Part shown: in pieces, positions 1-17,642 of the stretch | Layout: each line of letters opens with the position of its first letter | Numbering within the stretch: the stretch's first letter is position 1 | Notes under the pieces: generated by a model | The model's database searches: none | The model's input: the letters and a program-made list of their open reading frames with translations, nothing else | Told to the model about the DNA's origin: nothing | NCBI GenBank assembly: GCA_019115455.1 | Contig: DXDN01000001.1 | Coordinates: forward strand, 62,001 to 126,000 | Reading direction: 5' to 3' | From: Candidatus Eubacterium faecigallinarum | GTDB taxonomy: Bacteria > Bacillota > Clostridia > Oscillospirales > Acutalibacteraceae | Length of the DNA: 64,000 nucleotides | Program-made: the position numbers and the translations under genes

Positions 1-1122
1 ATGACCATCATCATTTGATGTTGCAGCTGTGTTTGCAGGAACAACTACATCTGAAGCAGCTGTGCCAGCATCGTAAGCCTGCTCGGAAACTGTAACGCCG
101 GCAGCGTTTACAAACTTAACTGTGTACTGATCTGCAGGAGCAGGTTCGTTAAAGATATTTGTTCCCATAAATGTGAATTTACGAGAACCAGGAGCTTCGG
201 TATCGCCCTCAGTGTTAGTACCAGGAATACGATAGTTATACGCATATGTGGTAATATCACCAGTCATGATACCATCATCACGGTGCGCAACATAAAGAGC
301 ACTTTCGAAGTTCGGATTAAGAGTATTGTCAGGGTCTCTTAATTCAAAATTAATGGGACCTTCGCCTGTGATCTTAAATACCCATGTATGCATGATGAGA
401 GTATTCTCATATGTATAACCTGTGCTCAGATCACCTGTGTTGGGATCAGCAAAATAATCATCATGTGTTGATGAAATATCTGTACCAGCAGTAGATGAAG
501 CAATTACATCTTCAAAATAATCATCTTTAATAGATGAAGGCTCAAGAGCTATGTTTATTTCTGGATAATATTTCATAGCTGACATGCTATCAAGGAAGGT
601 GTCACCACCAGCTGCGAAAGTACCGCCAACAGCTGCTGCTTCTGAAACAGTACCAAGAGCATAAGTCGTTACACGACCGCTTCTGTATGAATAATATCCA
701 GCAGGCTCAATATTGTCAGAAAATTTGATCTGAGTCTGTAAAGCATATACTGTATCAATGTTTTCAACTACTGAAGTTACTGTGAAATAGTCGCCTACAC
801 CGTAAGTAACATCTGACTCAGGTGCTGCATAGCCAAGCACTTCGGCTGCTTTTGCTGCTTTTTCAGCAGAAAGTGTAAGAGTTCCGGCTTCCTTATCATA
901 CTCAAGCGGAACATCATAAAGGCCACACATATCAAAAGTCTTACCAGCAGTTGCTGTATAATCCTGCCAGTCAGTAGCGTCATCTGCATGGAAAGTACCA
1001 AAATACAAATTAATATTTGGCTGATAGTCTCCAGCTGCAGCGAGAGCTGTGAATGGTACAGAAAATACTACCATAAGTACTGCAAGCAGAACTGCAATAG
1101 CCTTTTTAAATGATTTTTTCAT
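1..1122 (-). CDS. Secreted cohesin-like surface protein, C-terminus cut by window edge
   Basis: The reading frame stays open from the ATG at 1122 to the window edge, giving the first 374 residues. An AGGGAGAG ribosome site lies about 8 bases upstream of this ATG. Residues 1-30 form a Sec signal peptide (basic start, hydrophobic core, TALAAA cleavage region). Residues 105-140 (VGDYFTVTSVVENIDTVYAL) resemble the opening strands of a cohesin-type beta-sandwich, as in the next gene upstream. The last visible residues (YTVKFVNAAGVTVSEQAY) look like the start of a Listeria-Bacteroides type or MucBP-like surface repeat. It lies 60 bases after the cohesin-like/dockerin gene with no obvious terminator, so the two are probably co-transcribed. 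The cohesin assignment is an inference from pattern; secretion is well supported. What lies C-terminal, such as an anchor or dockerin, cannot be seen. Confidence 0.75.
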   Translation of the reverse strand, partial: MKKSFKKAIAVLLAVLMVVFSVPFTALAAAGDYQPNINLYFGTFHADDATDWQDYTATAGKTFDMCGLYDVPLEYDKEAGTLTLSAEKAAKAAEVLGYAAPESDVTYGVGDYFTVTSVVENIDTVYALQTQIKFSDNIEPAGYYSYRSGRVTTYALGTVSEAAAVGGTFAAGGDTFLDSMSAMKYYPEINIALEPSSIKDDYFEDVIASSTAGTDISSTHDDYFADPNTGDLSTGYTYENTLIMHTWVFKITGEGPINFELRDPDNTLNPNFESALYVAHRDDGIMTGDITTYAYNYRIPGTNTEGDTEAPGSRKFTFMGTNIFNEPAPADQYTVKFVNAAGVTVSEQAYDAGTAASDVVVPANTAATSNDDGH

Positions 1123-1182: not shown

Positions 1183-2280
1183 TCAAAGTGTTAAATCATC
1201 ATATGCTACTGTTTTACCAAATATTCCGGAAAAAACAGCTGCATCAATTGCATTAACACCCTTGTCTGCATTCAAATCACAGTAGACATTATATTCCCCA
1301 CTAAAGGAACCGGAAAATACTGCAACATCAATAGCGTTGAATGCTCCGTCTTTGTTATAATCACAAATAACAATACCTACACTATCTAAAGTAACAACCG
1401 AATCAACGGCCTTGTCGGAGGATACCGTTAGGGTACCAGCTCTGTCAACAGTCGTTGAACCGCTAAAAGTGATAGTGTACTCTCCCACCGGAATATCCGG
1501 CAGGGTATAGAATCCGTTTTCGTCTGTTACGGCTTGGGCAATTATCAATCCATCTTTTTCAACTGTAACAGTTATACCGATAATTCCAGCCGTAGTGTTT
1601 GTTCCTGTGGTATCGGTAGCAATCAGTACCTGACCGTTTACCGTATACTCCGCTGTAATAACAGGAGTTACATCACAGGACATTGGGTAAAGGTTACCTG
1701 AGTAACCAGGGTACGAATCAACAAGTGCGTACTGGTCGCTAGTACTGTCGTTAAGGTCAACCTGTACAAACGTGTGATTCGGATCTTGATCTGCCGTGAT
1801 ATAATCAGCGGCATCACAATCTGACGCAAAGGTCATAGAAATGGTTGTCAGCACTTGACCGTCAGAAGAAATAGCCGTGCAATCATCATTGCCAGAAATA
1901 AATCCTGTGATGATTGTACTGTTTTCGTTCTTATACCCGATAGTGTGGAAAGGAAATGCCTCATCATCAGATATCGAGTATGACGGCGCTGAAGCCACAG
2001 TGACCATGCTGTCGTCATAAGTAGCCGTAATTTGTACGACTGCCAGGTTTTTAACACCTGAAATTACAAAACTAACATCGTATGTTCCCGCAGTCAGCTC
2101 ATTGCCGTCGACTAATTCGCCGTCCTGAGAAAACGTACAGTAAATTTCCGGAGATTCTGTACCAAGGGTTCCGGTTTCAGCATTTGAAACAATCGGAAGA
2201 CCGATGAAAATCGTCATAGCGATAACCAAAGCAAGAAAACCAGCAATGATACCGCTGCCGAATTTATATTTGGCTTTCAT
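1183..2280 (-). CDS. Secreted cohesin-like / Cna-B-like / dockerin protein
   Basis: 365 aa, ATG start with an AGAGGAGG site 8 bases upstream. Residues 1-34 are a signal peptide. Residues about 36-205 look like a cohesin-type beta-sandwich (YDVSFVISGVKNLAVVQITA, then YDDSMVTV). Residues about 214-305 are a carboxypeptidase-regulatory or Cna-B-like domain (DENGFYTLPDIPVGEYTITF). Residues 306-365 are a type I dockerin with two 12-residue calcium loops: D307-x-N309-x-D311...D318 and D335-x-N337-x-D339...D346. After each loop comes VFSGSF or VFSGIF instead of the usual LLKRYLL-like helix. Domain order and C-terminus closely match the 2051-aa neighbour. A protein carrying both a cohesin-like and a dockerin module could act as an adaptor in a surface complex, but cohesin identity is not proven from sequence alone. 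Confidence 0.85.
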   Translation of the reverse strand: MKAKYKFGSGIIAGFLALVIAMTIFIGLPIVSNAETGTLGTESPEIYCTFSQDGELVDGNELTAGTYDVSFVISGVKNLAVVQITATYDDSMVTVASAPSYSISDDEAFPFHTIGYKNENSTIITGFISGNDDCTAISSDGQVLTTISMTFASDCDAADYITADQDPNHTFVQVDLNDSTSDQYALVDSYPGYSGNLYPMSCDVTPVITAEYTVNGQVLIATDTTGTNTTAGIIGITVTVEKDGLIIAQAVTDENGFYTLPDIPVGEYTITFSGSTTVDRAGTLTVSSDKAVDSVVTLDSVGIVICDYNKDGAFNAIDVAVFSGSFSGEYNVYCDLNADKGVNAIDAAVFSGIFGKTVAYDDLTL

Positions 2281-2641: not shown

Positions 2642-5600
2642 TTAGTCGAGAGCTAACGGATCATAGGTAACTGTGTTGCCAAAGAATCCGGAGAATACAG
2701 CTGTATCGATAGCATTAACACTATTATCAGCGTTCAAATCACAGTAAACATTATATTCACCGCCAAATGAACCAGAGAATGTAGCTGCGTCAATTGCGTT
2801 AAAGCTTCCATCCATGTTGTAATCGCAGATTACAATCGGAACAATAGCACCGGTAACATCTGCTGTACCACTGAGAGTAACAGTTCTGTTAACAGTTGTT
2901 GTACCCTTGAAAGTAAGTTCTGTCGTACCAACAGGAACAGTTGCTGTAAATGAACCGTCCTCAGCTGATGTTGCAACAAGCTGATCGCCTGCATAAACAT
3001 CAATACCTACAATACCAGAAGTGTATGTTGTACCTGTCGTGTTAGTAGCAATCATAACTGTACCGCTAACAGTGATCTCGTTAGCAGGCTCCTCAACATC
3101 CTCTTCAAGAGCGATTTCAGCAGCCTGAAGAGCTGTATCAGTGTAATAGCAATCCGAAATCTGAGCGTCATAATCGCCGGCAGTCGGATTATAGTTTGCA
3201 ACATCCTTATGAGCATAAGAACCGTTGCCGAGCTGTGCCACTGCTACTGCATTGGCAAGAGCTTCTACATAAGCATTCCATGTCTCAGCTGAGTAAACGG
3301 TTTCGCCCTCGTTTACGAGAGTTCCGTCCTCAGACCAAGCACCGAACTTAGGCTCAACAGCTGATGCACCCTTAGTTACAACAGCAGGAGTAAGGAGCTC
3401 GCCGCTCTCTTCATCATAAGTTGCCTTGGTTGCTACGAGATTGTTATAAGTGTTGCCTGAAGCACATTCGATTTCAGCTTCAATCTGGTTGCCCTGGTAG
3501 CCGCGCTCTACAACCTTGCTCATATAGATGTTAAACAGACGAATGTACTCGTCGATCTGAACAGATGAGAGATTTGAAGTAACTGCTACGCTTGTAACCT
3601 CAATATTCTCATTTTCCATATAGCCGTTGTAATCGCCGAAGGAGATAGTATCTGTCTTAGTTACTGTCTGAGTTACAGGCTTACCGTCAGGTCCCATAGT
3701 TGTGTTGCCTTCGTCGTCGATAACAGCCTCGTCAACATTGTATGTAATGTCAATGCTGTACTGTGACTCAACTACCTTAGCAAGATCAACCATTGTGTTG
3801 TAAGTGAGAACGTCAAAGTTATTTGTGTTCATACCGTTTCTGACAAGTGAAATCTCGTCAAGAAGTTTAGCTGCAAGAGTTGTATCAATATGATCGTATA
3901 CATACTCAATAGCCCACTGGAGATAATCGTTAGCTCTTGTGTAAGCACCACGATACTCTGTTACGCCATCATTCGGAATAACCTGATATGATGACTGCGG
4001 AATTCTTACTACCCAGTCGTCTACATAACGTACGGAGTTGCCGTTTGCGTTATAGTGGTTAAACTGAATCTGGTTGTAAAGAAGATTGCCGTTTTCGTCA
4101 GTTGCCTGAACATCGGTATCCTTGTACCACGGGCTGTCATAGGTATCGAAATCCCATTCCTTAGTGTATGCAGCTGTGTTGGTGTAATAGTATTTACCAT
4201 CTTCACCAAGTGTTACAGGCACGCCTGCCGCATCCTTACCATCCTTTACATCAGCTGATGTAAGAGCTTCGTTAGAATAGATTGCGGATACAAACTCGCT
4301 GTCATAGTAATAAAGCTGGTCGGCTTCATTGAAGTATGCAGCGTTAAGAATGTCTGAAGGAATTTTATCCTCGTTGCCAGCGCCCAGTGGCTTGTAAGCC
4401 ATATCACCAGTTGCAGAAGCAGCCTGAGATGTTACAAACTGACGCTCTGTTGTATCGTTAAGCTCCATAGAAGACTCAGGAGTAATAGGTGTTGCAGAAA
4501 CTGCAAGAGCATTACTGATAGCCTCTTCTGCTACGGTAATTGTTTCAGGTGAATCGAAGTCAGAGTCCTTATAATTGTTAAGAACGTCTGTCATTTCGTC
4601 AATCTTGTCACTTACCGAATCATTAACGGTTGTATCGGCAACAACGAATTTCAGTGTTGCTGTTGTGCTGGCCTTATTGTGCCAGAAACAAATCTTTGAT
4701 TCGATCGGCTCTGTTGTACCCTGAACAGCAGTTGTTCCGTCATACTGAAGGAAACGCTGATATATTGAAGTGTTGTTACCTATTGAAGGATTGGAGTCTG
4801 TATTCAAATAGAATCCATCTATTGGACCTCTCATAGAGATCTGGAGAAGAACGTTGTGATAACCGTAATCTCCGCCCGGATCCTTCATATAAACATAATC
4901 GTAAAGGCCTCTGTCGTTCTTATGAGCGGCAGCGATAAGTCCCTTGTTGTATGCATCATCAAGAGTAAATGCAACGTGAGTTCTTGATACGAAATCAGCA
5001 GTCTGATCAGGATGCTCCTGATAGAACTGATTCTGTGCACTCTCAAGAGTACTCTGGTCAACGCCATTTGTCCAAGATGAACCACCGTCTGTTGAATAGT
5101 CATAAAGACCAATTCTAAGAAGGTCACCGGTCTGCTTATCAAATACCGGAATAGCATTTGCGCTGTTAACGCTTACATCTGAGCCAGTTCTGTCATCATG
5201 AACTGTTGCTTCATCATAGAAATAGAAACCATAAAGTGTCTTTGCAGCACCAAACAAACCGCCAACTTTTATGTTTCTAACTCTTACTGCATAGCTGTCA
5301 ATAGCAGAAAGGTTACCTGTCTCAAGAGTAATATACTCAGGATAGTTAACAATGAATCTGTTGTTGCTACCGGTATCACCGAACTGCTGTGTTGTAAATA
5401 CGCTGAAACCGTTTACAGTCTTAGTTTCATTAGCTGAATTTGATTCAAGTGATTCTGGGAATCTGTTAAGACCGTTTTCAATTCTGCTCTCAGGATATAC
5501 TGTCTCAGCCCATGAAACATCACTTGTCAGGTACTGGTATGTACGAGACTCAAGATTCTCATGAAGAACTGTGCCGTCCTTATCTGTGATATCGTAATTT

Positions 5601-8600
5601 ACAACGATAGCATAGGTGCAGCTATTTGAGCCGGCATCAGGTGAGAATACAGTAGTTGTATTGAGACTTACAGACTCACCGGGAGCAATAAGTCCGGCTG
5701 AAGGAGCAGCGATGGATGAGCCGCCTGTTGAACCGTCTGGCTTCTCAATAACAGCGCTGTTAATCTTCAGATAGTAACGTGAAAGCTGTACATTAGTGTC
5801 AGCCATGCCATCAATATAAGCAATGTTTACACCCTTACTGTTGTTGGTGAATGTTATTGATGAGTAGTTACTACTGCTGGCTGAGCAGGCAGTAAATGTC
5901 GGATCAGCAACATCAACGCTTGCCATTGAAAGAGAATGGTCTGCGATATCAGGAAGGATTTTAACAAAGCTATTTACTGATGTAAGTGCAAATACAAGAC
6001 CCGGAAGAAGTGTATCAGGATATGTTGCTACACCTGATCCGCCGAAGCCGGAAAATTCAATAAAGTTGTTAACAAGCTTCTGAACTGCACCTACATTGTC
6101 AGGACCTGTTCCGCCGAGAGCTTCCTTATGAAGAAGGTCATCAAACGGATGAGTTGATGCGGCATCCGGTACAGGATACCAAATCTGACCGTCGTAACGA
6201 GGTCCGAAGATACCGTTGAAGAGTTCTTTTACAAGCTCGTATGCGGTGTCAACGATTCTGTTAGTCTGAATGAGGTCAGAAGAAAAGATTGTAAGCAATC
6301 TGTAAATGAAGTTTGATACTCCGCAAAAACCTGAAGCGTGAACATCGGTATTATCTATATCAAGTACGCCGAGAACAACATCGTTCCAAATAAGATCCTC
6401 TGAATCGAAGTTGGCTTCACCCTTGCCCTGGAGTGTTCCAAGAACCGGAAGAAGGTCATTAGCTATATTATTAAAGTTAGTCCAGATGTCATTACCTGAA
6501 TTTACTTTGCTGTTACCGTTCTGGTCACATACGCCGAGAAGAGGAGCAATACCCATTGCATTACCGTCTATCTTCTCGTAGCTGTATTTGTCTGCATAGT
6601 AGCAAACTACAGAATTAAGGAGCTCAAGAAGTGTATTCTCATCATTAACTTCTCTGTCCTTAACACTCCATGCATTACCTGAAGAATCAGTTACCGGAAC
6701 ATAACCTTCCATTACATATGTAACAGCATCACGTGCCATCGGAAGGATGGTTCCCTCAAGTGTAGCATTGATAGAACCGTCAGCTGCTTTAGAAACAAGA
6801 ACATTGTAATCCTTGTTAGGAAGAATGTATGAGAGATACTCTCTCAGACATACAAAAGCAACTGCTTCTGCATCCTTGCAAGCATCCCAGTCAGCAGGAT
6901 GAATTATCTCATCAAGTCTGCCAGAACCAAGGTTTACATTGCCGATGCAAGCAATAAGAAGAGGAATCATTGCCTCTTCAAGGTTTGATTCTGCAAGAGC
7001 TGTGCCTTCGCCATTCTTGAGATAGAAACCGTTGAGGATATTCTGATCTGTTGTGTCAGCTACATACTGAACCATCTTGAGTGTGTTACCAACAAGAGTA
7101 GAAGTAATAGTTCTGACAGCTGAATCATCAATTGTGGCAAAGTCGCCTGTAGTTGTCATTGTCGGACGAGCTGTGTCGCCGGCAGTTTCAACATAAATGT
7201 TGTCGCTTTCAGGGAAAAGATCCTTAACAGCAGCGATGAGGCAATCGTTAAGTCCTGCTATAAGCGAAGAATATCCGCTGTAGTTTGTCTCAAAGAAAGC
7301 GTCAAGATTATCTGTTCCTGTCTGTCTCAGATAGAGGTTGATAGGACCTGTCTGAATGTCGAAATAGTAATCGGCAAGCGGGCTGTATCTGAGCTTATTG
7401 AACAGGGTTGTTGAATCAATATCTGACCAGTTTCCTGCTGCGTCCTCAGCAACAGTACGATCGTGAACAAGATTGTCTTTAACCCAACCAAGGAATTCTT
7501 CTGCAGATGTTGCCTCGTAATCAGCATAAACTGCATTTGCCCATGCCATTACATTTTCAGAAGAATACATTGTAGCAAGATCATCATCATTCCATGCGCC
7601 GACATTTTCGATATACCAGTAATAATAAGTATTATCAAAGTTGGAGCCGTGTCCGCGGTCTACATCATAATTAACGTGGATCAGCTTGATGGTGTCTTTA
7701 AGAACAGTGTTCCAAGCAATACCAAGAGCCTTGTATCCCAGTGAGAAAAGGCTGTCTGCAGAGCTGAGCTGAAGCTTCTGGTCTCCGTAAACGAAGAGGA
7801 GAACATTGCCTTCAAATCCTCTCTCTGTTGTATATACAAGATTAGGATCGTATCCGAGAGCGGATGCAGCTTCTTCATACTCTAAGCCATCTTTCTGCAT
7901 CTTTGCTTCTATAGCTTCAAGTCTTGTTGCAGAAGAAGTACCGTCAGGATATGTAACAAGCACGTTAATCTTATCCATGAGCTCGGTAGCCATTTTTTCC
8001 ATAAGAATGTCATCGAATACAAACGGAGTTGTACCATTCTTATAGTTTGTTATCTCTTCAGGAGTAAACCAGTCTGTGTAGTTGAAGAGTACTGACTGAA
8101 GAATATTATATGCAAAGTCTGCTCTTGCTTCATCAGCAGTAATGCCAAGCATTCCGCCGAGAAGATCATAAATATCAAGCGGGATTACACCGAGGGTGAA
8201 AGTACCGCGAAGGATATTTCCGAATATTACATCATTGTTGTCGTAAAGCAGTCCGAGAACACCTCTTACGATATCGCATGAAGAAGTGTTACTTCTTGAC
8301 ATTCCGTTAAGAGCGGAGAGGTCAAGATCAGGAAGGATACCAAGATCAACGCCGAAGGTTGTGGCAACATCAATAAGGCTGCCCTTAATAAGAGAATCAA
8401 CGCTGTTGATAGTCTCAATGAGTTCGTCAACACTGCCGAGCTTTACAGTAACAGACGTGAGGCTGATACCGATAATTTTAAGGTTAACCTGTCTGCTGTT
8501 AAGATCCCATTCAATTTCAAGAGGATCAAGACTGGCACTGTTTGCCGCAGCTGCGAGAGTAGGCTCAAGTTCCTTAAGTGCCGGAAGCATCTCGTCAGCA

Positions 8601-8797
8601 TAGTCAAGAAGCGCAGTGGCTACCTGTTCGTCTGAAAGAACACTCCAAGCCAGACTGTTGTACTCAACGTCATCATCATATCTGCCCTGAGTTGCACCGT
8701 AAGCGGAAATAACGCCTGTAAAACAAGTGAGCGCCATCACCACTGCGAGAAGCAACGCAAGCAGCTTATGAGAAAACTTTTTAGCTTTCGTTCTCAT
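2642..8797 (-). CDS. Giant secreted dockerin-domain protein (2051 aa)
   Basis: ATG at 8797 with AAGGAGGT upstream (long spacing of about 13). Residues 1-35 are a signal peptide (MRTKAKKFSHK, hydrophobic core, SAYGA). Residues about 40-1100 form a mostly helical, Leu/Asp/Asn-rich region that I cannot assign. Residues about 1150-1850 are of mixed, beta-rich composition and include tryptophan- and tyrosine-rich stretches. Residues about 1895-1990 are a Cna-B-like domain (GTVMIATNTTGTTYTSGIVG). The last 61 residues are a type I dockerin starting at C1991, with loops D-Y-N-M-D...D and D-L-N-A-D...D. The C-terminal ~150 residues are a near copy of the 365-aa neighbour. No glycoside hydrolase motif was recognised. 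It is probably carried on the cell surface by a cohesin partner. The divergent gene at 9609 encodes another giant of similar helical style, so the two may be distant relatives or partners. Confidence 0.85.
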   Translation of the reverse strand: MRTKAKKFSHKLLALLLAVVMALTCFTGVISAYGATQGRYDDDVEYNSLAWSVLSDEQVATALLDYADEMLPALKELEPTLAAAANSASLDPLEIEWDLNSRQVNLKIIGISLTSVTVKLGSVDELIETINSVDSLIKGSLIDVATTFGVDLGILPDLDLSALNGMSRSNTSSCDIVRGVLGLLYDNNDVIFGNILRGTFTLGVIPLDIYDLLGGMLGITADEARADFAYNILQSVLFNYTDWFTPEEITNYKNGTTPFVFDDILMEKMATELMDKINVLVTYPDGTSSATRLEAIEAKMQKDGLEYEEAASALGYDPNLVYTTERGFEGNVLLFVYGDQKLQLSSADSLFSLGYKALGIAWNTVLKDTIKLIHVNYDVDRGHGSNFDNTYYYWYIENVGAWNDDDLATMYSSENVMAWANAVYADYEATSAEEFLGWVKDNLVHDRTVAEDAAGNWSDIDSTTLFNKLRYSPLADYYFDIQTGPINLYLRQTGTDNLDAFFETNYSGYSSLIAGLNDCLIAAVKDLFPESDNIYVETAGDTARPTMTTTGDFATIDDSAVRTITSTLVGNTLKMVQYVADTTDQNILNGFYLKNGEGTALAESNLEEAMIPLLIACIGNVNLGSGRLDEIIHPADWDACKDAEAVAFVCLREYLSYILPNKDYNVLVSKAADGSINATLEGTILPMARDAVTYVMEGYVPVTDSSGNAWSVKDREVNDENTLLELLNSVVCYYADKYSYEKIDGNAMGIAPLLGVCDQNGNSKVNSGNDIWTNFNNIANDLLPVLGTLQGKGEANFDSEDLIWNDVVLGVLDIDNTDVHASGFCGVSNFIYRLLTIFSSDLIQTNRIVDTAYELVKELFNGIFGPRYDGQIWYPVPDAASTHPFDDLLHKEALGGTGPDNVGAVQKLVNNFIEFSGFGGSGVATYPDTLLPGLVFALTSVNSFVKILPDIADHSLSMASVDVADPTFTACSASSSNYSSITFTNNSKGVNIAYIDGMADTNVQLSRYYLKINSAVIEKPDGSTGGSSIAAPSAGLIAPGESVSLNTTTVFSPDAGSNSCTYAIVVNYDITDKDGTVLHENLESRTYQYLTSDVSWAETVYPESRIENGLNRFPESLESNSANETKTVNGFSVFTTQQFGDTGSNNRFIVNYPEYITLETGNLSAIDSYAVRVRNIKVGGLFGAAKTLYGFYFYDEATVHDDRTGSDVSVNSANAIPVFDKQTGDLLRIGLYDYSTDGGSSWTNGVDQSTLESAQNQFYQEHPDQTADFVSRTHVAFTLDDAYNKGLIAAAHKNDRGLYDYVYMKDPGGDYGYHNVLLQISMRGPIDGFYLNTDSNPSIGNNTSIYQRFLQYDGTTAVQGTTEPIESKICFWHNKASTTATLKFVVADTTVNDSVSDKIDEMTDVLNNYKDSDFDSPETITVAEEAISNALAVSATPITPESSMELNDTTERQFVTSQAASATGDMAYKPLGAGNEDKIPSDILNAAYFNEADQLYYYDSEFVSAIYSNEALTSADVKDGKDAAGVPVTLGEDGKYYYTNTAAYTKEWDFDTYDSPWYKDTDVQATDENGNLLYNQIQFNHYNANGNSVRYVDDWVVRIPQSSYQVIPNDGVTEYRGAYTRANDYLQWAIEYVYDHIDTTLAAKLLDEISLVRNGMNTNNFDVLTYNTMVDLAKVVESQYSIDITYNVDEAVIDDEGNTTMGPDGKPVTQTVTKTDTISFGDYNGYMENENIEVTSVAVTSNLSSVQIDEYIRLFNIYMSKVVERGYQGNQIEAEIECASGNTYNNLVATKATYDEESGELLTPAVVTKGASAVEPKFGAWSEDGTLVNEGETVYSAETWNAYVEALANAVAVAQLGNGSYAHKDVANYNPTAGDYDAQISDCYYTDTALQAAEIALEEDVEEPANEITVSGTVMIATNTTGTTYTSGIVGIDVYAGDQLVATSAEDGSFTATVPVGTTELTFKGTTTVNRTVTLSGTADVTGAIVPIVICDYNMDGSFNAIDAATFSGSFGGEYNVYCDLNADNSVNAIDTAVFSGFFGNTVTYDPLALD

Positions 8798-9426: not shown

Positions 9427-9455
9427 TTGACTTATCTTGTATAATTTGTTATAAA
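9427..9455 (+). promoter_or_regulatory. Promoter for giant repeat protein gene
   Basis: TTGACT, 17 bases, TATAAA. Transcription would start near 9462 and leave a leader of about 145 bases before the ATG at 9609. Confidence 0.55.
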
Positions 9456-9608
9456 TAATTTGTATTTGTTCGTGCGTGCGTGGATAAGTGCACCCAAAAA
9501 TCAGTATTTTGTTAATAAATTATTAATCAATCTGCTTTTTAGACGCTTTTTCGCATGCAAATTCAAACGGCAAGTTCGTTAATCATAAAGGTAAAGGAGA
9601 GATTTATT

Positions 9609-12600
9609 ATGAAGACGAGCAAAAAACTACTTAGCTTTTTCTTAGCGGTAGTTATGGTTATCACCACATGCTCTGTTGGCTTCACTGCTTTTGCGCAGGA
9701 CAACAGCAACAGCATATGGGAAACCTCGAGCGACGCTGAAGCAGCTTTCAACTCGCTCAACGGACTGGCAGACGATTATCTGCCCGCCGTACTCATTAAT
9801 GCTTCTCCGGCAATAAGTGCACCAGTGTACAAGAAATATGCCGGCGAGTACAAAAATGCAGACGGCACTCCGAAAACAGCTGACCAGCTGACAGCATCTG
9901 AAAAGGAAGACATTGCCAACAACAAGGCAACTCTTCAGGATGTTCTCGGCGCACTTCAGCCGGTACTGCTTAATGCCCTCGGCACAAGCCAGGAGGACTA
10001 TGTAACAGCAGTTGACGGAGAAGACTCACAGAAAGACGCCAGCTATTACGATTACCTCATCAAGTATAAACTCGATGAGAACGGTGATCCGATGCTGGAC
10101 AGCGAAGGAAACCCGATTGTTGACGATTCTTCAATCAGCTTTTTCTCACTCTACATTCTGTGCCGTGACTACAGATTCAACAGTGAACTGTCAGAGAGCA
10201 CAAGAAACATTCTTAGCGAATGGTATGAAAAGCTCAACCAGATAGCTAACATTGACTCATCAGCAGTTGTTAAAAAGTATGCAGAAATGTATCAGCCTAT
10301 TTCAAACCCAACATATGATTTCGCTGCTTTATATGAGCTTGAATGTACATTTACCGATGAGTTCTGGGAGACACAGGTTTCTGCTGAAGACAAGCTTGTT
10401 CTTGAAGCTTTATTTGACAGCTATAATACCCAGTATGAAGAATACAACATGGGCATTAAGATCGATAGCCTTGCAGATCTCATCTACTACTGCTACGGTG
10501 CCGGTCAGAATGTAAAGTATGCTTATGCTTATTATAACCTCGTTCATTCGACTGGAACTACAGTTACATTCAACAAGACCACGGAGGATGTTACCGGTGC
10601 ATTCGGCGGACCAATTGCATACAACATCAATGAAGATATTACACCTGAAAACGCTACAGAACTTCTTGTTGTAAATTCAGCAGTCGGAAGCGGTCAATTT
10701 ACGGAGATAGTACCTACTTCTCTTGAAGATGTAGTATACCTCTCACTGGGTGTTGAGCCTGGAGAAGACTTATCTGAAGAAAATCAGATGATGTTTAACC
10801 TCTATATGTCAATGTTTGAGCAGATTTCAATCGACGCTTATGTAAATACAGTAATTCCCGAACATTACAGGGAACTTGTTGCCGGTCTTGCAATCAAGTA
10901 CAGCGACCAGGTAAACAACATGGATGATTTCGAAGCTCTTGTCGATTCAAAAATGCCTGCAAATTACGAGACAGAAGACGTATTTACCGCAGAAGAGATC
11001 AAGGAAATCGGTTCTTTCTTTGAGACTGTTTCAAGAGACGGTGCAAATGGTTTCAAAAACACAAGCACCTTCTTTGCTAACGGAACTATCGAGATGAACG
11101 ATAACTCCGGAACAAAGATTACTCCTACTCTTCCGGAGAAATTCAAAGGCACACTTGTCGCTGAATATTTCTCACTTATATTCAAGGATTCCAAGCTTGG
11201 TGATACATATCCAAACAACCTTATCTACGCTTTCTGCGAAGATTTCAAACAGATAGGTAACAATAAATATACGGAAAAAGGCACCGGAAATAAGGTTCCT
11301 AACATTGTTAACTACGATGTTGTAAGATACGAAGGTTCAAACCTTCCAGTTCTTAATTATCCGGACGAAGGCGGCTATGATACAGAAGTTATCAAGCAGT
11401 ACATTATGGATTCTGTTGACTATGCATATGCTAAGACAGCAGCTAACCTGCTTGGTATAACTGAATTTGACGATAGCTCTTCACCAAAGGTTGCCGACAG
11501 CGTTCTTAATTACAAGAACTACATTGATTCGCAGGTTTCCGACAGCGGCAGCAAGGTAATCCTTACCGAAGACCAGAAAAAGATTCTTTATGCTGACTAT
11601 GATCTTACCGGAGAGATGGGTACCGAACTTCTCAACCTTTATCTTAATGAAAACATTGTAAGCATAATCGACCTTGCAACATCATATGTAGGCGCACTCG
11701 ACGGTATGGGTCTTGACACTGCTCTTGCTGACCTTTGGAACAGAGTTTACGAATCACCTGTTGCTACAATATTCGAGATTGTTCCTGTAGTTGCAAAGCT
11801 TGCCGACGAACTTTTAATCCCGATAGTATTGAATAACGGTGAAGATGATTTCTATTCAAGCCTGGGCGATGTTTATACAAACATTCTTGCTCCGCTTCTT
11901 GGCAATCTGCTTGGAATTGAGCTTCTGACAACTGACGGTTCATATATAGGTCTTGACAGCATCTTCTTTGATTTAAACAAGATCCTGCCTAACGTAATGA
12001 ACTGGCTGTTTGAAGGAGCTGAAGCAGAGGGAATCACTTACTACGATGGCAGCACTAAAACTCTTATGACCACCGTAACCGTTCCTTCTCAGGATCCTGA
12101 CGGCGAGCCTGAGACCACCAGAGCTGAAGCAGTATTCTCAGTTGATGCAGGTAATATAAATGATATAGATTTTAAACATTATAATGTAGCTGACAGAAGC
12201 GGTAATTCGCTTACACCAGTATACAACGACAACGGTGAAATCACAGGCTACACATATCTCAACAATACTGCTGATACTCTTGAAGATCTTCTTGCTGATT
12301 ATGCAGATACCGAATTTCTCTGCACTATTACATACAGCAGTGACGTTCCTCGTCTTACTGGTGTATACATTGCCGACAAGGCTCTTCGTGACGCTGACAT
12401 TGCAGATCTTGATACTCTTCTTGCAGGAGCACTTGATTACGAGACTAAGACAGACGAAGACGGTAACGAAGTTAAGGTTCTTAAAACTGATGAAAACGGT
12501 AAACCGATCGAAACTCCAAGTGCAACAGCGGTCGCACTTTCACAGACAATTACCGAAATCGCACAGCTCTTCAGATCAGCTGTAAACGAGTTTGTAAACT

Positions 12601-15600
12601 CCGAACGTGTTAACCAGCATCAGTATGATGCAAACGGAAATGTTCTTAACTCAGGTCTTAACAACATCTTCGTTGCAATTCCTCAGTTGTTTGACATTAT
12701 GGAGGATCTGGCTGCCGATAAGTACGGCGTATCAAAGGACGCTTGGACTTACTGCTATGACGGCAAGATCTTCGTTGACGAAAATAATTCATACAAGAAC
12801 CAGCGTCTTGTAGATTTCATTTCCTATGCAAGCAGCACAGATCCTGACAGATCAGTAGATATCCTTGATACATTTGCAGATATCTTTGTAAATGACTGGA
12901 TCAATGCTATAATAAGCCTTGTAAACGGCGTTATTTCAACAGATAACAGCATTACTAAGAACATCCCGATCATTACCGGACTTCTCAATTCACTGGGTGG
13001 ATTCGGAGAAAAGAGCATAATTACCGACGTGCTCAACGGTGTGTTCCAGATAGACCGTGAAAGCAAATATTCATTTACATTTGAAGAGCAGGAAACAGGA
13101 TTAACCGGTCTTACTAAAGACAATGCTTACTTCCTTATTTCCAACATTCAGACTCTTGTAAATGTTATTACTGACCTTGCAGGCAAGTTTGGCGGCAGCG
13201 ATGAAAGCGACAATAACAACAGCAGTTCATCAACAAGCCCGACTTATAAACCAAAAGCAGCAAAGACGGCAAATGCCGACAAGAGCACATATACAAACAA
13301 AGAATTAAGCAACGCAACAGACCTTATCAATAACCTTGATAAGATGTTGTCATCTCTCCTTGCTGACAGCAGCTTTAACGGATTCAACATAAATTCAGTA
13401 GACAACATTCTTTCAGGTGCAGTTACATTCTTCTCTAACTACCTGGGTAACGATTGTTTCACTGATTTAGGAAAACTTCTCAACTCTTATGTATTCTACA
13501 TTACCGGCTCGGAGACATACACTCCTGACAAAAACGGCAATGTTGACGCTAAGAAGGTTTACTCAAACGAATCACTGACAGGTCTTGTTGTTGAGACATT
13601 CCTGCTGATTGAAAAGATTTCTGAGAATCTGCTTGCAGATTACGGAGACACATATACACTTGACAATGGCACAAATGCTCAGTACAACCTGCTTGTTGAG
13701 GCAATTGAGGGTGTTATCTCCCCTGACGCCGTAAGCATCAGACTTGACGGTTACGACAAAGTTCAGGATCAGCTTTCTAAGTACAACTGCTGGCACAATG
13801 CAGCCGACCAGACCTCAAGAGGCGATTACAAGATCAAACTCGACTGGGGCATCAAAGACGGCGACAAGGATGCGTTCTATGACGCACTGGCAGCTTCACT
13901 CAGACTTGTTACTTCAATCCTCGGCGTCGTAATGATCGACACCAACTGGTATGCAAACGTAGTTTCTCCTGTACTCGGTGCTCTTTGCACAAAGAACGGC
14001 ATCAAGATTGACACAGCCGCTCAGTACGCTGTAACTACAAACGGCTATCACGACGAGGTTCTGCTTGGTCTGCTCAGACCTATATCAGAATGGCTCAACC
14101 TCTTCCTTGATAAACCTGCAACAACACTTATTAAATCGGTTCAGGGTATCGCCGGAATACTTGACGACAAGAACGGCGCAACCATCGCTTCCATAGTAAA
14201 CGGAGCAGTAAGCCCGCTTGTTAAAGAAATTAACGGTCTCGGCGAAATATTTGCAATCGTCAGCGACGAGCTTCTTCCGACATCACTTAAACTTAAGGAA
14301 GTTATAAACGGTCTTGCAGATAAACTTGCAGTTTACGCAGACGCAAATAATATTAAGCTCGGCCAGGGCAACTACAAATATTCACTTTCAGGCGATAATC
14401 TTATCCCGATTATCAACAGCTATATCGCAAGCACCGGAATCACTCTCAAGAAGATTAACTGGAATAAGCTCAGCACTGCAAAGACACCGGCTGCAGCTCT
14501 TGTATACGTTCTTGAATATGTGATCGAGGTTCTACTCGACAACGACAACCTTACAGCACTTGCAAAACTTATCGGAAACGATACAGTAACTCAAATCCTT
14601 GATCTGCTTAAGGCAGGCGATATCACAGCTCAGGATCTTCTCAGCGTACTCAACAAAATCCTGGAAGCTACAGACAGCCCGACACTTGCATACTGGACAT
14701 TCTCACAGTATCTCCAGGAAGCAGCAACAGGCTTCTATTATCCGGCAGGCATCACAAAGCAGATGGCTGACAACGGCGTTGAAGGCCTCGATAATCTGAT
14801 TGCAGGTATCTTCCCGCTTCTCAGCTCCTTCGGTGTTGACCTCGGAGCCGATGACCTTCAGGGAATAATTAATAACAATCTGTTCACAAACGAAATTGTA
14901 ACTAAGCTTGCAACCGCTCTTTACGGCGCGCTTGACGGACTTGATCCTAATATCAAGCAGGTTCTCAAGGTATTCGGTATAGTTACATCCACTAAGGACG
15001 TTGCAAAACTCCTTACAGACAAGAGCTACGGCAAGACATTCACTTCAGCTGCAAACACCATCAAGGCACAGTCAAGCTGGAGCAAAGTAAAGAATGTAAA
15101 CTGGGGCTTTAAGGACGGCTCAGCAAATGCTCAGCAGGGCTTTGTAAACGCACTTGCCGCTGTTCTCCGTCCGCTTAGCAGCATACTTAACGTATTGCTT
15201 AACGAAGGAACACTCGAGCTTAATGATAATCTTTATAATTTAATCAAATCTCTCGACGTTCCTTATACAGTTCAAATAATTACGATTTCTGATGACAAGG
15301 AAGCTCCGATCAAGCTCAAGTTCTCCTATCGTATGAAGGACGGCGTACTCAGAATGAAATTCAGAGAGTACGAAGACAATCGTGAGCGTTCAAAGTCTTC
15401 CGAACTCAGACTTGATTTCTCTTCACTTAATACAATAAAAGATCTTAAGATTGAAGGTACAAACGGCTACAACAGCGCAATAATTCCTCTTCTTGAGGCA
15501 TTAGGTTGCTCAAACATTTCAACCTACAAGCAGTATCAGAGCGATGCAAACAAGGCTAAGGATAATCTCCTTCTTAATATCCTCAATCCGCTTGTTGGTG

Positions 15601-17642
15601 ATTCAAGCAGTTCATTCCTTAACAAGCTTGCAGCTAACCCTGTAGATGAGCTTACAAAGGTATTGCCGAACGTTGCAATGTATCTTGATTCCCACGGTCT
15701 TTCACAGCTTGTAAATAATCTGCTTGCTCCTATTACAGATATTATTTACGAAGCAGACGATAAGTTTGATATAGATGCAATGCTTGAAAGCGTTCTCGGT
15801 GATTCGCTCGGCAATTATCTTGAAGATCTGCTTGGTATGAAGAAGGGAACAATTAAGATTGATTTCTCAGATTTGACAAAACTCAATCTTGAAGATTTAA
15901 TTGTACCTCTTATCAACAAACTGGCGTTCCAGAACAGTGATAACGCCACACTCAGAAAACTGAGACTTGATAACATTAATTGGAACGCTCTTATCAGTCT
16001 GGGCGATCCTACAACCTACACCAGCAAGGCAACCGGTTCCAACGGCAAATACCTGACTGGTAAAACGATTGAAAACGTCGACCAGGGCAAGGTTCTTATC
16101 ACGTTCCTTCGTTATGTAGCAGATTTCCTTGTGGATAATGCTTCACCGTTAAAGAACCTCATCTGCTCAATCGACGCAGTAGCTAAGAATGACACAATCA
16201 AGTCAGTAGTTCAGAGTGTATTCAACACACTTTCAACATCAACAGCTGACCAGATAGTTGCCGCAGTATTCTTCCTGCTGGCAGGAAATCCGGAAAACGC
16301 ATTCTGGGATTACACAAGCTACGAAACAGGCAAATACTCATTCTCTTATCCGGAAAATATGGACGTTGACTTCCTCAAGCAGCTTCCTCCGATGCTCGAC
16401 GGACTTATCGGTAGCCTGGCAGACCTTAACGGACTGATCAGTGAGGCTCTCTTCAAAGATGAGCTTATCAGCAAACTGGCAACAGGTCTTTACGGCGCAA
16501 TCGAAGGCGTGAAGATCAACGACGACATGAACCTTACACAGCTTCTTGCTAAGACTGATATCGACTTCTCAACAAGCAACGTTGCAAAACTTCTTGTTGA
16601 CGAAAGATACGGACAGAAGTTTGAGAGCGCTTCGGCAACTATCGCCGCTGCAGGCTCATGGAGCAATGTCGATGTTAATTCGCTCAAGTGGGGCGTAACC
16701 GACAGAGACAGCTTCTTCCATGCACTTGTTGCTGTACTCCGTCCTCTCTACGGCGTACTTGACGTTCTTCTCAACGACGCTTACCTTGGTCTGTTTGATA
16801 TCGTAAGACTTCCGGGTTCAAACGGTTATACATCATCGATCGTTCCGCTTATGGAAGCGTTCTCAATGTATAACATCAAGACACAGTATCAGTACAGACA
16901 GGATATCAACGAAGAGTATGACGCAATACTCCTTGACATAATCAATCCTCTCTGGGATCTTGTTGAGGACGTTCTTGCAGCTCCGCTTCAGACAGTAGCA
17001 GCAATCATACCGAACCTTGCACTCTTCATCGGCAACGACGGACTGTGCCAGATTATCGACAACCTGCTCACTCCTGTATCTGCAATAGTTGACGCAATCA
17101 GACCTGTAGTTGATCTCAACGATCTCCTTACAACACTGTTTGACGCACTTGACGTAGACATCAACGGCATCCTTGCCAAGATCGGAGTAACAAACTTCTC
17201 ACTCGATATCTATGATCTTAACAAGACTCTCAAGCCGATACTCAGCGGCGACGCTATCATCCCGCTTGTAAATAACATTCTGGGAATGATCGACATCAAC
17301 GGAACAAAGCTTGACCTTAAGCTCAATCCTGTTGACTGGTTACAGCTTGCAAGCCACGGCACAACCGTAGTAAGCGCTTCTCAGGCTGCAACATACGGCT
17401 CAAGAATCTTCGTTCAGGGCGATTCTTCAGAAACACTCATCGCAGTACTTAGATACCTGATTAACACAATTAATACAGGTGACAATCTTGATAAGATCAG
17501 CTCGCTGATAGGCGGACTGCTCGGCGACGGTGTTGATGACAACGTATCCGGAATTATCACTCAGGTACTCGGAATGCTCAAGGGCGATACCGATGAGGTT
17601 ATCTCCTCACTTGTTGAGCTTCTTCAGCAGCTTGGTTCATAA
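9609..17642 (+). CDS. Giant secreted internally repetitive protein (2677 aa), unknown family
   Basis: I chose ATG 9609 because AAAGGAGAG lies just upstream and the next residues form a signal peptide (MKTSKKLLSFFLAVVMVITT, cut near TAFAQD). An in-frame ATG at 9555 has no ribosome site. Residues 30-1190 are helical and Leu/Asp/Asn-rich. A Ser/Asn/Thr linker follows at about 1195-1230. The C-terminal half has three divergent repeats, each opening with a W-G motif (W1413, W1832, W2361) followed by A-L-x-A-x-L-R and an I-x-P-L-x-E/N motif. Later shared motifs are LPN, LIPLIN and a LATxLYGAxxG end. Repeat 2 carries an extra segment of about 65 charged residues; repeat 3 is cut short and the protein ends on LLQQLGS. 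There is no dockerin, LPxTG, SLH or C-terminal membrane segment. Function is unknown; a secreted scaffold or adhesin-like fibre is a guess. Confidence 0.85.
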   Translation: MKTSKKLLSFFLAVVMVITTCSVGFTAFAQDNSNSIWETSSDAEAAFNSLNGLADDYLPAVLINASPAISAPVYKKYAGEYKNADGTPKTADQLTASEKEDIANNKATLQDVLGALQPVLLNALGTSQEDYVTAVDGEDSQKDASYYDYLIKYKLDENGDPMLDSEGNPIVDDSSISFFSLYILCRDYRFNSELSESTRNILSEWYEKLNQIANIDSSAVVKKYAEMYQPISNPTYDFAALYELECTFTDEFWETQVSAEDKLVLEALFDSYNTQYEEYNMGIKIDSLADLIYYCYGAGQNVKYAYAYYNLVHSTGTTVTFNKTTEDVTGAFGGPIAYNINEDITPENATELLVVNSAVGSGQFTEIVPTSLEDVVYLSLGVEPGEDLSEENQMMFNLYMSMFEQISIDAYVNTVIPEHYRELVAGLAIKYSDQVNNMDDFEALVDSKMPANYETEDVFTAEEIKEIGSFFETVSRDGANGFKNTSTFFANGTIEMNDNSGTKITPTLPEKFKGTLVAEYFSLIFKDSKLGDTYPNNLIYAFCEDFKQIGNNKYTEKGTGNKVPNIVNYDVVRYEGSNLPVLNYPDEGGYDTEVIKQYIMDSVDYAYAKTAANLLGITEFDDSSSPKVADSVLNYKNYIDSQVSDSGSKVILTEDQKKILYADYDLTGEMGTELLNLYLNENIVSIIDLATSYVGALDGMGLDTALADLWNRVYESPVATIFEIVPVVAKLADELLIPIVLNNGEDDFYSSLGDVYTNILAPLLGNLLGIELLTTDGSYIGLDSIFFDLNKILPNVMNWLFEGAEAEGITYYDGSTKTLMTTVTVPSQDPDGEPETTRAEAVFSVDAGNINDIDFKHYNVADRSGNSLTPVYNDNGEITGYTYLNNTADTLEDLLADYADTEFLCTITYSSDVPRLTGVYIADKALRDADIADLDTLLAGALDYETKTDEDGNEVKVLKTDENGKPIETPSATAVALSQTITEIAQLFRSAVNEFVNSERVNQHQYDANGNVLNSGLNNIFVAIPQLFDIMEDLAADKYGVSKDAWTYCYDGKIFVDENNSYKNQRLVDFISYASSTDPDRSVDILDTFADIFVNDWINAIISLVNGVISTDNSITKNIPIITGLLNSLGGFGEKSIITDVLNGVFQIDRESKYSFTFEEQETGLTGLTKDNAYFLISNIQTLVNVITDLAGKFGGSDESDNNNSSSSTSPTYKPKAAKTANADKSTYTNKELSNATDLINNLDKMLSSLLADSSFNGFNINSVDNILSGAVTFFSNYLGNDCFTDLGKLLNSYVFYITGSETYTPDKNGNVDAKKVYSNESLTGLVVETFLLIEKISENLLADYGDTYTLDNGTNAQYNLLVEAIEGVISPDAVSIRLDGYDKVQDQLSKYNCWHNAADQTSRGDYKIKLDWGIKDGDKDAFYDALAASLRLVTSILGVVMIDTNWYANVVSPVLGALCTKNGIKIDTAAQYAVTTNGYHDEVLLGLLRPISEWLNLFLDKPATTLIKSVQGIAGILDDKNGATIASIVNGAVSPLVKEINGLGEIFAIVSDELLPTSLKLKEVINGLADKLAVYADANNIKLGQGNYKYSLSGDNLIPIINSYIASTGITLKKINWNKLSTAKTPAAALVYVLEYVIEVLLDNDNLTALAKLIGNDTVTQILDLLKAGDITAQDLLSVLNKILEATDSPTLAYWTFSQYLQEAATGFYYPAGITKQMADNGVEGLDNLIAGIFPLLSSFGVDLGADDLQGIINNNLFTNEIVTKLATALYGALDGLDPNIKQVLKVFGIVTSTKDVAKLLTDKSYGKTFTSAANTIKAQSSWSKVKNVNWGFKDGSANAQQGFVNALAAVLRPLSSILNVLLNEGTLELNDNLYNLIKSLDVPYTVQIITISDDKEAPIKLKFSYRMKDGVLRMKFREYEDNRERSKSSELRLDFSSLNTIKDLKIEGTNGYNSAIIPLLEALGCSNISTYKQYQSDANKAKDNLLLNILNPLVGDSSSSFLNKLAANPVDELTKVLPNVAMYLDSHGLSQLVNNLLAPITDIIYEADDKFDIDAMLESVLGDSLGNYLEDLLGMKKGTIKIDFSDLTKLNLEDLIVPLINKLAFQNSDNATLRKLRLDNINWNALISLGDPTTYTSKATGSNGKYLTGKTIENVDQGKVLITFLRYVADFLVDNASPLKNLICSIDAVAKNDTIKSVVQSVFNTLSTSTADQIVAAVFFLLAGNPENAFWDYTSYETGKYSFSYPENMDVDFLKQLPPMLDGLIGSLADLNGLISEALFKDELISKLATGLYGAIEGVKINDDMNLTQLLAKTDIDFSTSNVAKLLVDERYGQKFESASATIAAAGSWSNVDVNSLKWGVTDRDSFFHALVAVLRPLYGVLDVLLNDAYLGLFDIVRLPGSNGYTSSIVPLMEAFSMYNIKTQYQYRQDINEEYDAILLDIINPLWDLVEDVLAAPLQTVAAIIPNLALFIGNDGLCQIIDNLLTPVSAIVDAIRPVVDLNDLLTTLFDALDVDINGILAKIGVTNFSLDIYDLNKTLKPILSGDAIIPLVNNILGMIDINGTKLDLKLNPVDWLQLASHGTTVVSASQAATYGSRIFVQGDSSETLIAVLRYLINTINTGDNLDKISSLIGGLLGDGVDDNVSGIITQVLGMLKGDTDEVISSLVELLQQLGS
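13740..17642 (+). repeat. Three long divergent protein repeats in the giant gene
   Basis: The W-G landmark codons are at 13845, 15102 and 16689, so the units are about 419 and 529 residues apart. Repeat 2 is longer because of an insert at about 15250-15450 that reads as charged beta-strands (KLKFSYRMKDGVLRMKF). Repeat tails align as LATALYGALDG (repeat 1) and LATGLYGAIEG (repeat 2). The repeats are similar at the protein level but diverged in DNA, so they are old duplications rather than a recent tandem array. Confidence 0.7.

Follow-up and report, generated by a model that had tools for sequence, protein, structure and literature searches.

A giant secreted repeat protein encoded beside cohesin and dockerin genes, a candidate anchor-less member of an undescribed surface family

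Introduction

Gene A makes up about 0.5% of its genome (1.71 Mb, 98% complete). What kind of protein does it encode, and is this protein fixed to the cell? An initial annotation had read it as a secreted protein with three long repeats and no known family, perhaps a new class of secreted scaffold or fiber. Most species of its genus retain A, which is related to some very large bacterial proteins, yet A is unnamed in the databases searched. We analyzed A and its neighbors in the window, i.e., the whole stretch of 64,000 nucleotides, and compared them with their counterparts in other genomes. The features are collected in Table 1.

Results

Gene A and its product

The proposed reading frame and its signal peptide were both confirmed: the gene starts at 9609, stops at 17642, and encodes 2677 aa. 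We placed the start at 9609 and not at 9555 because the ribosome-binding site AAAGGAGAGA is conserved and the orthologs begin at the same MRTSKK. The signal peptide (residues 1-29) is nearly invariant among them. The protein is acidic (369 D+E vs 187 K+R) and has few Cys. It ends with VELLQQLGS and has no C-terminal LPXTG with a hydrophobic stretch and a positive tail. Neither an LPXTG motif nor a C-terminal TM helix was found in A, and neither a cohesin (PF00963) nor a dockerin (PF00404) module, in line with the earlier statement that anchor and dockerin are absent. Searches with Pfam and NCBIfam gave no SLH or other named S-layer domain in A and no toxin, protease or translocation domain. 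By sequence, A is neither a scaffoldin or dockerin protein nor, by any domain test, an S-layer protein. The idea that A is a truncated version of an anchored gene was rejected, as all orthologs end at the same place.

Upstream of the gene, window positions 9428-9608 hold a strong conserved sigma-70-like promoter and a 5' leader whose start is highly conserved (TTGTATTTGTTCGTGCGTGCG). An Rfam search of the window and of the 0.8-kb A-B intergenic region matched no RNA element.

Table 1 Features of the A locus (coordinates in the window)
Feature	Position	Strand	Evidence
Gene A, giant secreted repeat protein, 2677 aa	9609..17642	+	ORF; full-length orthologs; repeat in 65/80 genus genomes
Promoter-like site TTGACT-N16-TATAAA, 5' of A	9428..9455	+	invariant in five-species A-B intergenic alignment
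Signal peptide, residues 1-29 (AFA|QD)	9609..9695	+	sequence; nearly invariant among orthologs
Fast-diverging N-terminal region, residues ~100-900, proposed exposed tip	9906..12308	+	low identity; raised dN, dS
Possible degenerate repeat half, residues ~683-731	11655..11801	+	weak; recurs at one position in several orthologs
Conserved non-repeat domain, residues 1000-1384	12606..13760	+	57-70% identity
Repeat unit 1 (degenerate), residues ~1382-1660	13752..14588	+	hmmsearch iE 1.1e-5 and 1.8e-13
Repeat unit 2, residues 1669-2187	14613..16169	+	hhalign/hmmsearch
72-residue insert in unit 2, residues 1874-1945, missing from unit 3	15228..15443	+	alignment
Repeat unit 3, residues 2188-2636, most conserved	16170..17516	+	hhalign/hmmsearch; ortholog identity
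C-terminal tail, residues 2637-2677	17517..17639	+	anchored paralogs extend beyond here into TM anchor
Gene B, 2051-aa giant, X-dockerin at end (dockerin 2696-2824)	2642..8797	-	Dockerin_1; XDoc 4u3s/4wi0
Gene C, 365 aa: cohesin (about 1807-2079) + prealbumin-like domain + dockerin (1234-1362)	1183..2280	-	cohesin match, XDoc
Gene D, first part of 905-aa secreted protein, leaves window	1..1122	-	Listeria-Bacteroides-type repeats

Repeat units and internal layout

Motifs: The three W-G motifs, at residues 1413, 1832 and 2361, reproduce exactly the figures of 419 and 529 of the initial annotation. These had been given as repeat lengths but hold as spacings; the unit itself has about 450 residues, and the longer spacing is mainly due to the 72-residue insert in unit 2. 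Of the motifs listed before, W-G and ALxAxLR (1426, 1848, 2372) occur in all three units, LATxLYGAxxG only in units 2 and 3 (1767, 2290); LPN is found in unit 2 (2019) and is replaced by IPN in unit 3 (2467), with a further LPN at 793. The family is defined by WGx-D...ALxAxLRP, NGYxSxIxPLLEA and LPNxAxF in the unit of about 450 aa.

Profile comparison: With profiles from five orthologs, hhalign aligned units 2 and 3 with E down to 4.6e-34, and unit 1 with units 2 and 3 with E of about 1e-8. As judged from these alignments, the repeats are not chance, and the profiles back them independently of the motifs.

Residues 650-830: A fourth unit in this region is suggestive only.

Residues 1000-1384: This non-repeat domain is confined to A-type proteins and was not found in the paralogs.

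Unit number: Orthologs of A have 3, 4 or 5 units. When 51 full units were placed in a tree, the last ones came out as a single clade (99/96), and the first units clustered with three of the extra units. Hence, the duplications seem to predate the species sampled, and the extra units appear to be position-specific.

Homologs and distribution

The claim that A has no known family held: Pfam-A, NCBIfam and PDB chain sequences gave no match, and a literature search for the repeat found no description. Searching with a profile of units 2 and 3 found the repeat widespread in the genus (65 of its 80 genomes) and no match outside the genus in a sample of 391 genomes of the class. Among 394 genomes of the order, only one convincing relative came from outside the genus (G065, E 1.9e-10 against a profile from which it was absent); it lies on a 3.4-kb contig of a 75%-complete genome. 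A broader profile gave no further relative outside the genus in the genomes of the order. Full-length orthologs from independent assemblies (L004-L007) are 52-57% identical to A, and about 10 good-quality genomes of the genus are without the A type. That A is a mobile-element or viral gene was rejected by a search of phage, plasmid and IMG/VR collections, which gave no match.

Divergence along the protein

Compared with four orthologs, residues ~100-900 of A share 17-47% identity. Against 22 members, residues 151-900 are 22-34% identical, and the remainder of the protein from residue 901 onward is 51-74% identical. In a near pair of orthologs (L054/L057), dN is 0.45-0.74 over the first 900 residues but 0.01-0.02 over the last 500, and dS likewise drops along the protein, from above 1.3 to 0.2-0.4. 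As dS shifts too, the pattern suggests that divergent alleles were exchanged in this N-terminal stretch, rather than relaxed selection only. A variable N-terminus with conserved repeats is what one would predict if an exposed tip were mounted on a conserved base.

Structure prediction

AlphaFold2 was run twice with ten alignment rows each, on unit 3 and on half of unit 2 together with unit 3. Mean pLDDT was 45.8 and 44.3; the models are mainly helix, and only about 100 residues around 2280-2380 are locally confident. When the low-confidence model was compared with the PDB by Foldseek, the best match had E 1.2, which says nothing either way for a model of this quality. A had been called helical before, which the secondary structure of both models favors and their low confidence weakens (no confident fold, pLDDT 44-46). 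We regard A as probably helical.

Anchored giant paralogs

The repeat-family profile matches both A and anchored paralogs, whose lengths range from 1035 to 8729 aa. The largest relatives, found in some genomes, have 8005, 8729 and at least 6314 residues and consist of units over most of their length. At the C-termini of the giant paralogs, a hydrophobic helix is followed by a charged tail, i.e., a TM anchor. Two shorter paralogs (L105 and L106) carry LPNTG or IPNTG, then a hydrophobic helix and basic residues; both have the sortase-anchor pattern by sequence, with Pfam Gram_pos_anchor below its cut-off in L105. A stops (…EVISSLVELLQQLGS) just before the place where the TM-anchored paralogs run into their anchor. 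Because of these anchored paralogs, we take the repeat family to be a cell-surface family and A to be a member without an anchor of its own.

After each TM-anchored giant, on the same strand, lies a gene for a small protein (L097+L098, L099+L100, L101+L102, L103, L104). These proteins are 317-379 aa long, membrane-anchored, and belong to one conserved unnamed family.

Neighboring genes

Gene B: The X-dockerins of B and C are matched best in the PDB by XDoc structures from cellulosomal scaffoldins, namely 4wi0 and 4u3s (E 5e-7 to 2e-4). B was tried as a relative of A by sequence and rejected, since no repeat matches in B.

Gene C: The N-terminal domain is the sole cohesin match in the genome, with E 0.0019, below the curated cut-off. 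Among 18 orthologs, the same domain gives a cohesin match in 5, with E as low as 3.4e-7, and it is above the Pfam cut-off in those of G316 and G319. C combines cohesin and dockerin in one protein, as a cellulosomal adaptor does, the cohesin being sub-threshold in the window copy. With this combination, C could polymerize on itself.

Gene D: D adjoins C and continues in L068 (14405-17122). Its N-terminus is possibly cohesin-like, unconfirmed by Pfam.

Dockerins of B and C: Their mean likeness is 58% within a genome vs 33% between genomes. The bodies of B and C follow orthology, unlike their dockerins. Homogenization of the two dockerins within each genome is a clear sign, read from sequence comparison, of concerted evolution; it is as if both must fit one cohesin.

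Gene order: The order C-B-A, with B divergent from A, is retained in nearly all loci with enough flank. Among 80 genomes, 51 have both A and B, 8 only A, 1 only B, and 20 neither (Fisher p = 1.6e-11, which is overstated, as the genomes of one genus share ancestry). Most A-only genomes have the gene on short or truncated contigs; G284 (3 contigs) is really without B and has neither B nor C beside A.

Cellulosome genes: With only three dockerin genes and one weak cohesin in total, no enzyme-bearing cellulosome is evident in this genome.

Discussion

In our best explanation, which we hold with moderate confidence, A represents the secreted type, lacking an anchor, within an undescribed family of surface repeat proteins that are giant, acidic and probably alpha-helical, and it is probably part of the same assembly as B and C. 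By its sequence, A is exported via its signal peptide; its conserved C-terminal units of ~450 residues may form an extended stalk or base, and residues about 100-900 would serve as an exposed tip in contact with phage, host or substrate. Other family members are, by sequence, fixed to the cell by a C-terminal TM helix or a sortase signal. As A ends just before the start of their anchor, it must be held non-covalently or released. The divergent pairing with B and C in nearly every genome suggests that A is probably in the same surface assembly, in which, judging from the locus, B would dock on C, C may chain on itself, and A would add the bulk stalk.

A scaffold or fiber, as the initial annotation had proposed, is plausible given the anchored many-unit paralogs, the variable tip on conserved repeats, and the constant cohesin and dockerin neighbors. 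What counts against a stalk in such an assembly is the lack in A of any anchor, cohesin or dockerin of its own. As neither model gave a confident fold, "stalk" and "helical" draw on the repeats and the secondary structure. The shared synteny may also reflect co-regulation instead of contact, which counts against a joint assembly of A, B and C, as does G284, where A has neither B nor C beside it.

The wording "new class" was too strong, since such giants are already known. Giant1-5 of Apilactobacillus kunkeei are described as extracellular proteins of 3,000-8,000 aa, with N-terminal beta-solenoids predicted for Giant1-4 (PMC12863079). By this account, Giant1-5 resemble A: these secreted surface proteins are very large, are encoded in small genomes, and have a conserved gene neighborhood and recombination-driven diversification. 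Unlike Giant1-4, A has Leu/Asp/Asn-rich units of about 450 aa that are predicted to be helical; this comparison is by description, not alignment (PMC12863079). The giant adhesin of Mobiluncus mulieris has 7,651 aa with 51 Ig-like cross-linked domains (PMC10619420). As described there, it is, like the A family, a huge cell-surface repeat protein, whereas Pfam finds no Ig-like domain in A. By analogy, the family appears to resemble the Apilactobacillus and Mobiluncus giants in its way of working, as far as this can be judged; no domain was found in common. Cellulosomal scaffoldins and adaptor scaffoldins (PMC12484212; XDoc 4u3s, 4wi0) resemble B and C in their X-dockerin and cohesin modules, whereas A has neither cohesin nor dockerin, unlike cellulosomal scaffoldins (PMC12484212). 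New here are the repeat family and the unusual locus; giant anchored surface repeat proteins are already a known kind.

If A is instead released as a soluble secreted protein, e.g., a decoy, a glycan-binding or a matrix protein, it would work off the cell, and the anchored paralogs would use the module separately. The absence from A and all its orthologs of the anchor seen in the paralogs fits this. We nevertheless consider it rather unlikely, because A is constantly paired with cohesin and dockerin proteins of surface assemblies, and because its large size and variable tip are features that displayed proteins typically have. Less probable still is a sheath or S-layer-like subunit whose self-assembly would coat the cell with a lattice. 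The high acidity and few Cys of A would suit such a subunit, as would its near-universal presence in the genus and its conserved promoter; however, A has no SLH or known S-layer domain, its type is missing from about 10 good-quality genomes of the genus, it is very large for an S-layer protein, and its unit number varies. In polymorphic toxins, the variable part is the C-terminus. A giant effector or toxin-delivery protein with its active part in the variable N-terminus is highly improbable: the terminal region does diverge fast, but Pfam and NCBIfam find no toxin, protease or translocation domain in A, the variation is at the opposite end from that of polymorphic toxins, and no immunity-like gene was noticed beside A.

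Should A truly be a stalk on the surface whose tip recombines, it would be a candidate for the part of this uncultured group that phages, hosts or neighbors encounter. A more speculative extension of the surface-assembly reading, which we put forward with low confidence, is that A, B and C make an enzyme-free extracellular matrix, in which a polymer of C would carry the giant B, with A as a helical-repeat stalk with a recombining tip. In that case, cellulosome-like assembly machinery would have been reused for building a cell coat. The B/C pair allows testing of cohesin–dockerin use for coats rather than enzyme complexes.

In several genus members, B could also bind other, multi-cohesin proteins, a further point against the joint assembly. 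Clear multi-cohesin proteins are present elsewhere in G308, G257, G145, G276, G316 and G319; as they occur in several species, cellulosome-like systems appear patchy across the genus. The third dockerin gene of the genome (L001 4-1698) encodes a 564-aa secreted protein in which leucine-rich-repeat-like sequence is followed by a dockerin.
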